From Dokdonella sp. (lineage in GTDB: Bacteria; Pseudomonadota; Gammaproteobacteria; Xanthomonadales; Rhodanobacteraceae): a stretch of DNA of 64,000 bases. The notes beneath the pieces were generated by a model. The model saw only the letters and a program-made list of their open reading frames with translations. It ran no database searches and was not told the DNA's origin. Of this stretch, positions 32,983 to 33,348 are shown one piece after another. Both the position numbers and the translations under genes were made by a program. The stretch covers positions 1 to 64,000 of the forward strand of contig NZ_JAHCAP010000010.1 in the NCBI RefSeq assembly GCF_019634815.1, in the 5' to 3' direction. Within the stretch, counting starts at the first letter, position 1, and the number at the start of each line of letters is the position of its first letter.

Positions 32983-33058
32983 TGGTGGGCCCACCAGGAC
33001 TCGAACCTGGAACCAAGGGATTATGAGTCCCCTGCTCTAACCATTGAGCTATAGGCCC
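32983..33058 (-). tRNA. ileX: tRNA-Ile with CAT anticodon (lysidine type)
   Basis: Seventy-six bases fold as a full tRNA with encoded CCA. The acceptor stem GGGCCTA pairs with TGGGCCC, the D-arm is TAGCTCAATGGTTAGAGC, and the anticodon arm is GGGGACTCATAATCCCT. GACTCATAATC followed by CTTGGT is the hallmark of the AUA-reading tRNA-Ile2, whose C34 becomes lysidine, rather than of elongator or initiator tRNA-Met. Its 5' half is repeated upstream. Confidence 0.93.
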
Positions 33059-33348
33059 GCAACAAACTTTCATTCCAGCAACCATCCGTGGTGCGCAGTC
33101 CGGCCGCGCCCTCCATGGCGCGTCGCTCGACCCAGCGCGAGCTGCTCGTGGCAGCTCGCAGGCGCTGGCTCTCGCCCCTGCTCCAACCATTGAGCCATAG
33201 GCCCGCAACAAACTTTCATTCCAGCAACCATCCGTGGTGCGCAGTCCGGCCGCGCCCTCCATGGCGCGTCGCTCGACCCAGCGAGAGCTGCTCGTGGCAG
33301 CTCGCAGGCGCTGGCTCTCGCCCCTGCTCTAACCATTGAGCTATAGGC
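33029..33348. repeat. 146-bp tandem repeat carrying the 5' half of tRNA-Ile(CAT)
   Basis: Copies start at 33029, 33175 and 33321 (the last only 28 bp). The first copy includes the 5' half of the real tRNA. The second and third carry the same 30-bp D-arm segment followed by unrelated GC-rich sequence, so they cannot make a tRNA. Copy 2 differs from copy 1 by only a few bases, two of them T-to-C within the tRNA part. The copies lie upstream of the true gene in its direction of transcription. Confidence 0.9.

Follow-up and report, generated by a model that had tools for sequence, protein, structure and literature searches.

How a tRNA gene came to be preceded by two copies of its own 5' half is the question raised by this locus, which lies in the window, i.e., the whole 64,000-nt stretch of Dokdonella sp. 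DNA analyzed here. Read 5' to 3' on the minus strand, on which all the features of the locus lie, a subtilisin-like serine protease (subtilase) gene (33444-35144) and an intergenic segment (33351-33443) are followed by tRNA nt 1-30 (33350-33321), a 116-nt linker (33205-33320), tRNA nt 1-30 again (33204-33175), a second 116-nt linker (33059-33174), and the complete tRNA gene (32983-33058). Two 146-bp units, each joining 30 nt of the tRNA's own 5' half to a 116-nt linker, precede the tRNA, and each tRNA half retains the D-arm. The tandem 146-bp duplication had been noticed in the original prediction, and was confirmed by TRF (33029-33348, period 146, 2.2 copies, 97% match, score 619) and by a repeat search, which returned 146-nt copies at 33029-33174 and 33175-33320 (98% identical, with 4 of 146 positions differing between the two upstream units) and three 41-nt copies. 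The array itself stands, but the former count of one full and one partial copy needs correcting: both linkers are complete, and the tRNA half is present twice in addition to the gene itself. The copy next to the tRNA bears two substitutions, and the distal one, which had been described as keeping the original bases, extends to 33350 and bears one change, at 33349.

ARAGORN found a single tRNA in the window, as had been claimed, at 32983-33058 (minus strand, anticodon CAT, printed as Met), and this intact gene also matched RF00005 (73.7 bits). Judging from its anticodon arm and from group I introns in its orthologues, this tRNA(CAU) is probably tRNA-Ile2; we take the presence of such an intron in orthologous tRNA(CAU) genes to support this identity, by analogy with known intron sites. 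The intron (RF00028) was found in three congeners (G005, G007, and G014) and in two genomes of other genera (G023 and G050; loci L032, L033, L034, L043, and L044), and no RF00028 match was obtained in the tRNA or linker of the window. A degenerate group I intron was accordingly rejected as the nature of the linker, even though the tRNA is interrupted by such an intron in relatives. Rfam yielded no match above the gathering score outside the tRNA, a simple scan found neither an intrinsic terminator nor a sigma-70 consensus near the array, and the single-sequence fold of the unit was not unusual (z -0.87). By nucleotide similarity, the 146-bp unit occurs once in the 3.24-Mb genome, at its own locus; sought in this way as a dispersed repeat, the linker seemed to have no other copy in the genome, and its family emerged only with a structure model.

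Comparison with relatives placed the array in a wider context. Within the genus, a single tRNA copy is found in G004, G006, and G010, two of which (G004 and G010) share the subtilase neighbor; in G004, a truncated linker-like sequence stands before the one tRNA. Similar arrays occur at the same tRNA outside the genus and in further families of the order (G056, G047, G049, G378, G442, G073, and G066), with one extra unit in G378 and 15 identical 144-bp units in G442; an early order-wide pattern scan for such arrays misses those with a spacing above 153 nt or with indels. In all of them the tRNA part ends in a GG run, either at nt 29-30 or near nt 69, and GYGA opens the linker. An artefact confined to this assembly is contradicted by the same architecture in other assemblies, including the one-contig G118 and the 5-contig G442 with its 15 copies. 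One tRNA copy of the G056 array holds an unrelated insert of about 50 nt in the anticodon stem region (L049, 2251-2350, as oriented). Separately, the 3' part of tRNA(CAU) recurs, partially or as a second copy, 1-52 kb away in G011, G057, and G033 (L035, L046, L056, and L057), which suggests that this tRNA is also an attachment site of genomic islands.

The linker is part of a dispersed structured element of about 95-105 nt, hereafter E, whose left end is GYGAG preceded by GG. Over about 100 columns, linkers from the tRNA arrays align with one another and with a sequence resembling them at the 5' end of a permease gene (G049 and G058), and share a common fold in which a stem GC-GA-GCCGG/CCGGC-GA-GC surrounds a hairpin and is followed by a second hairpin. 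This fold covaries: 14 of 23 pairs are changed on both sides, and 92.4% of the cells in the alignment are paired, vs. 30-39% when the partner is slid. The resulting covariance model (R1) matched both linkers of the window on the minus strand, at 33228-33321 (copy a, expectation value 8.4e-9) and 33082-33175 (copy b, 9.1e-8), each linker comprising E and a short spacer; it recognized no E in the intergenic segment between the subtilase gene and the first tRNA half. At the left junction, GG meets GCGAG at 33321/33320. Among 16 chosen genomes, E was found in 13; under more stringent filtering, 28 of 160 genomes of the order, representing 16 of 63 genera, had it. Copy numbers range from 0 to 38 per genome at the thresholds applied. 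The genome of the window contains four matches: two at the present array, one at tRNA-Arg(CCG), and one on contig 36. The latter (L142, 983-1078) is embedded in an open frame that reads on through E, in a gene that looks HsdM-like by eye, with no duplication around it. About 38 copies were counted in G050, several of them in short, BIME-like tandem clusters that lack any gene-end duplication (L162, L163, L170, L171, and L045).

At the tRNA array, E stands between two copies of a target sequence, X, and this X-E-X structure recurs in many genes and families. Among 100 sampled copies of E, 41 have a sequence ending exactly at the left edge of E that is repeated just after it (score of at least 20, gap 0 to E), a score that only 8 of 3000 positions picked at random attain. 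X corresponds to a gene end, namely that of tRNA-Ile2, tRNA-Arg(CCG), accB, purA, rpe, pgk, ubiG, ruvA, a PduO-type adenosyltransferase gene, or the permease gene, or, with E antisense, the 3' end of ftsZ or hrpB; at tRNA-Arg(CCG), which is the second case in the genome of the window, X is found on the 5' side and also, with E antisense, on the 3' side. Family models or ARAGORN confirmed the targets accB, rpe, ubiG, purA, ruvA, the PduO-type adenosyltransferase, HrpB, FtsZ, and tRNA-Arg(CCG). The identical purA site was hit in three genera, and five copies of X are present at purA in G118. X measures from 22 to about 105 bp, the intact gene lies on the 3' side of E in every case read, and E is almost invariably preceded by GG, even at copies devoid of duplication. 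The latter account for about half of all copies, so that the duplication is either facultative or was lost there. Native sequence devoid of E leads into the first X at accB, the permease gene, pgk, rpe, and the tRNA-Ile2 of G378 and G442, and in the window, too, no E was recognized ahead of the first tRNA half. Some arrays (L026, L049, and L143) have a truncated E before the first X, which also fits duplication of a pre-existing E-gene unit.

Sites with and without E were compared at accB in all 13 genomes (species) of one genus, where 11 sites were readable: five contain X-E-X and six are clearly empty. The filled site of G442 matches the empty one of G450 at 118 of the 120 nt before the start codon and at 69 of the 70 that follow it; since these flanks match, the native upstream sequence abuts the first X, and E plus the second X constitute a unit that was gained or lost. 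The two X copies agree at 69-70 of 70 positions within a species and at 60-67 of 70 between filled species, in a pattern that fits concerted evolution of X together with repeated precise loss, both of which would proceed by recombination between X copies. G378, G445, and G253 have an accB spacer in common, which points to one old insertion. A macB-like site in G038 was also checked as an empty site, and the gene was absent there.

From a mechanistic point of view, we consider it probable (about 0.83) that E is a non-autonomous, structured, REP-like element, dispersed in the order, that inserted with duplication of the adjacent target to give X-E-X, the second unit of the window having then arisen by recombination. 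E would arrive by transposition, joining the target gene at GG with its precise left end GYGAG, and the insertion event would duplicate the adjacent 22-105 bp or so. Where X reaches past the end of the gene, the gene would stay whole, and insertions near the ends of essential genes would be tolerated; X nearly always holds the whole gene end, presumably because, near such ends, only insertions with a duplication extending past the gene end are viable. In the window, X would correspond to the first 28-30 nt or so of the tRNA, the distal half being the original position and the intact gene the preserved target. Alignment of the sequences upstream of the first tRNA half and upstream of the tRNA gave nothing above chance that would lengthen X, so the length of the original duplication is uncertain here. 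Unequal recombination between X copies would subsequently have produced the second E-X unit, and likewise the expanded arrays of G118 and G442. The mention of traces of element insertion among the initial explanations is thus supported in an unexpected form, namely a short structured element accompanied by a duplication of the gene's 5' end. No transposase or other mobilizer was identified. Duplications of 22-105 bp are unusual among known bacterial elements, and a search of open papers returned no description matching E or its long duplications.

Several features of the array also agree with a plain duplication in tandem of the region upstream of the tRNA, through slippage or unequal crossing-over, the linker then being native 5' flank with incidental E-like hairpins: the units are head to tail and 98% identical, the sister species G004 has linker-like sequence upstream of its single tRNA, and E-X units clearly multiply, as the 15 copies of G442 illustrate. 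Such an origin is nevertheless improbable, as the linker is dispersed and also found at unrelated genes, its left junction is nearly always GG followed by GYGAG, native sequence without E precedes the first X at accB, the permease gene, pgk, rpe, and the G378 and G442 tRNA-Ile2 arrays, and the comparison of filled and empty accB sites, with no E at the empty site of G450, contradicts it. The slippage proposed initially, or unequal recombination, may account for later array growth, in line with the near-identical units here and the identical ones of G442, but it does not account for the origin of the array. It is very improbable that the array serves to make functional tRNA-half or decoy RNAs. 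Its position within the tRNA leader and the D-arm kept in each half speak for such a role; however, X-E-X is equally formed at the ends of protein genes, accB, purA, rpe, and pgk among them, so that the tRNA content reflects the target, and congeners whose locus could be read lack the array. The decoy or RNase P substrate role once suggested, being specific to tRNA halves, finds no support, for the same reason.

The possibility that E is an ordinary REP/BIME mobilized by a RAYT (Y1 transposase), with X repeats due to later rearrangements, deserves more consideration, yet we regard it as unlikely. Like E, REP/BIME sequences are short, dispersed, palindromic, polar, and often clustered, a GT-rich head directly preceding an imperfect hairpin. 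The head of E, GTGAG or GCGAG followed by an imperfect palindrome that its covarying consensus fold bears out, resembles REP heads of the form GT(A/G)G (PMC2817692), and RAYT genes were found in 14 of 16 genomes and are missing from two of the three that have no E. On the other hand, E differs from REP/BIME in three tested features, namely the head, the flanking of RAYT genes, and the lack of target duplication. The tetranucleotide 5' of the REP palindrome is mostly GTAG, and also GTGG (PMC2817692; PMC8266576), vs. GYGA(G) after GG in E. REPs flank RAYT genes (PMC2817692), whereas a search of 30 PF01797 loci with flanks up to 1.5 kb revealed one weak E nearby. Larger target duplications are not known from transposition of the IS200/IS605 type (PMC2817692), in contrast with the exact duplications of X at 41 of 100 copies and at the accB sites. 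E is, moreover, longer (about 100 nt, with three hairpins) and usually present in low copy number.

Other known systems share part of these properties with E. MITEs and small insertion sequences are likewise non-autonomous and bounded on both sides by direct repeats of the target; their target duplication is, however, short and fixed, and MITEs have terminal inverted repeats, whereas the duplication at E varies from 22 to about 105 bp, and no inverted match between the left (GYGAG) and right (about GGAYGGYTGC) ends of E was seen in the junctions read. Integrative elements also insert in tRNA and housekeeping genes and restore the gene end, but the end restored at E comes from the target itself and is not carried by the element, which is about 100 nt long, has no integrase, and uses many unrelated targets. 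The 178-bp repeats of E. coli tyrT, with tRNA 3' pieces (rtT RNA), are tandem units holding part of the adjacent tRNA gene, as here; they differ in that the present unit holds the 5' rather than the 3' part and includes a dispersed element that also occurs at other genes. E can be placed among the short palindromic non-autonomous elements, with a fair chance that its way of insertion is new.

E usually displays two CANGGANG hairpin loops, i.e., the CsrA/RsmA consensus. With 40 nt added to E, two CANGGANG motifs are present in 60 of 100 copies and one in 29, almost only on one (sense) strand, while the background is 0.05 expected per 135 nt. High-affinity CsrA/RsmE sites are indeed CANGGANG hexaloops with a spacing near 18-21 nt (PMC4894983). 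Such motifs might make E a selected cis-regulatory RNA, a portable putative RsmA/CsrA-binding leader that would place growth genes and tRNAs under RsmA control or titrate RsmA, the duplication of X being a harmless means of installation. We hold this role to be possible, if doubtful. Two motifs in most copies, far above background, and the presence of E at five of the 11 readable accB sites of one genus, where X-X recombination can remove it, are in its favor; yet common descent links the copies of E, so that conserved motifs do not count as independent observations, the motifs have disappeared from the tRNA-Ile2 arrays of both G378 and G442, despite the 15 units of one of them, and antisense insertions at ftsZ, hrpB, and tRNA 3' ends cannot serve as leaders. 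CsrB/RsmZ-type RNAs and RsmA-bound mRNA leaders also contain repeated hairpins with CANGGANG loops; E, whose binding by RsmA is predicted, differs in that it does not, as far as shown, constitute an independent sRNA gene, and in that it is dispersed and tied to gene-end duplications. More tentatively, and with the odds against it, E may represent an undescribed DNA movement combining all these traits: a structured element of about 100 nt with one precise end, a 20-105 bp target duplication, insertion harmless to the ends of essential genes and tRNAs, and RsmA-binding hairpins recruiting genes to RsmA control.

If E does insert as a REP-like element duplicating its target, one element family would explain puzzling partial gene repeats, i.e., tRNA halves and N-terminal fragments of accB, purA, pgk, and rpe, and a short palindromic element would tolerate insertion in essential genes by rebuilding them. 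The movement of REP-like elements would also become testable, as both junctions are kept at every site and empty counterparts are available in close relatives, and natural tandem arrays of up to 15 units offer a copy number that can be followed.

Some further observations were made around these loci. On contig 24 of the same genome (L143, 1244-1700), about two tandem units 3' of tRNA-Arg(CCG) combine the tRNA 3' end with another hairpin insert of about 85 nt, with a CAGGGACG loop, which is possibly a second class of element. On the plus strand of the window, 32985-33058 gave a match to RF04354 (Plastid-ycf2 5'UTR) of 40.5 bits, below the cut-off and antisense to the tRNA; that family may therefore derive from antisense tRNA sequence. 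Finally, a tandem 297-bp repeat at 26307-26959 of the window lies within a long ORF whose product, judged by eye, resembles a protein with repeated Ig-like or cadherin-type domains.
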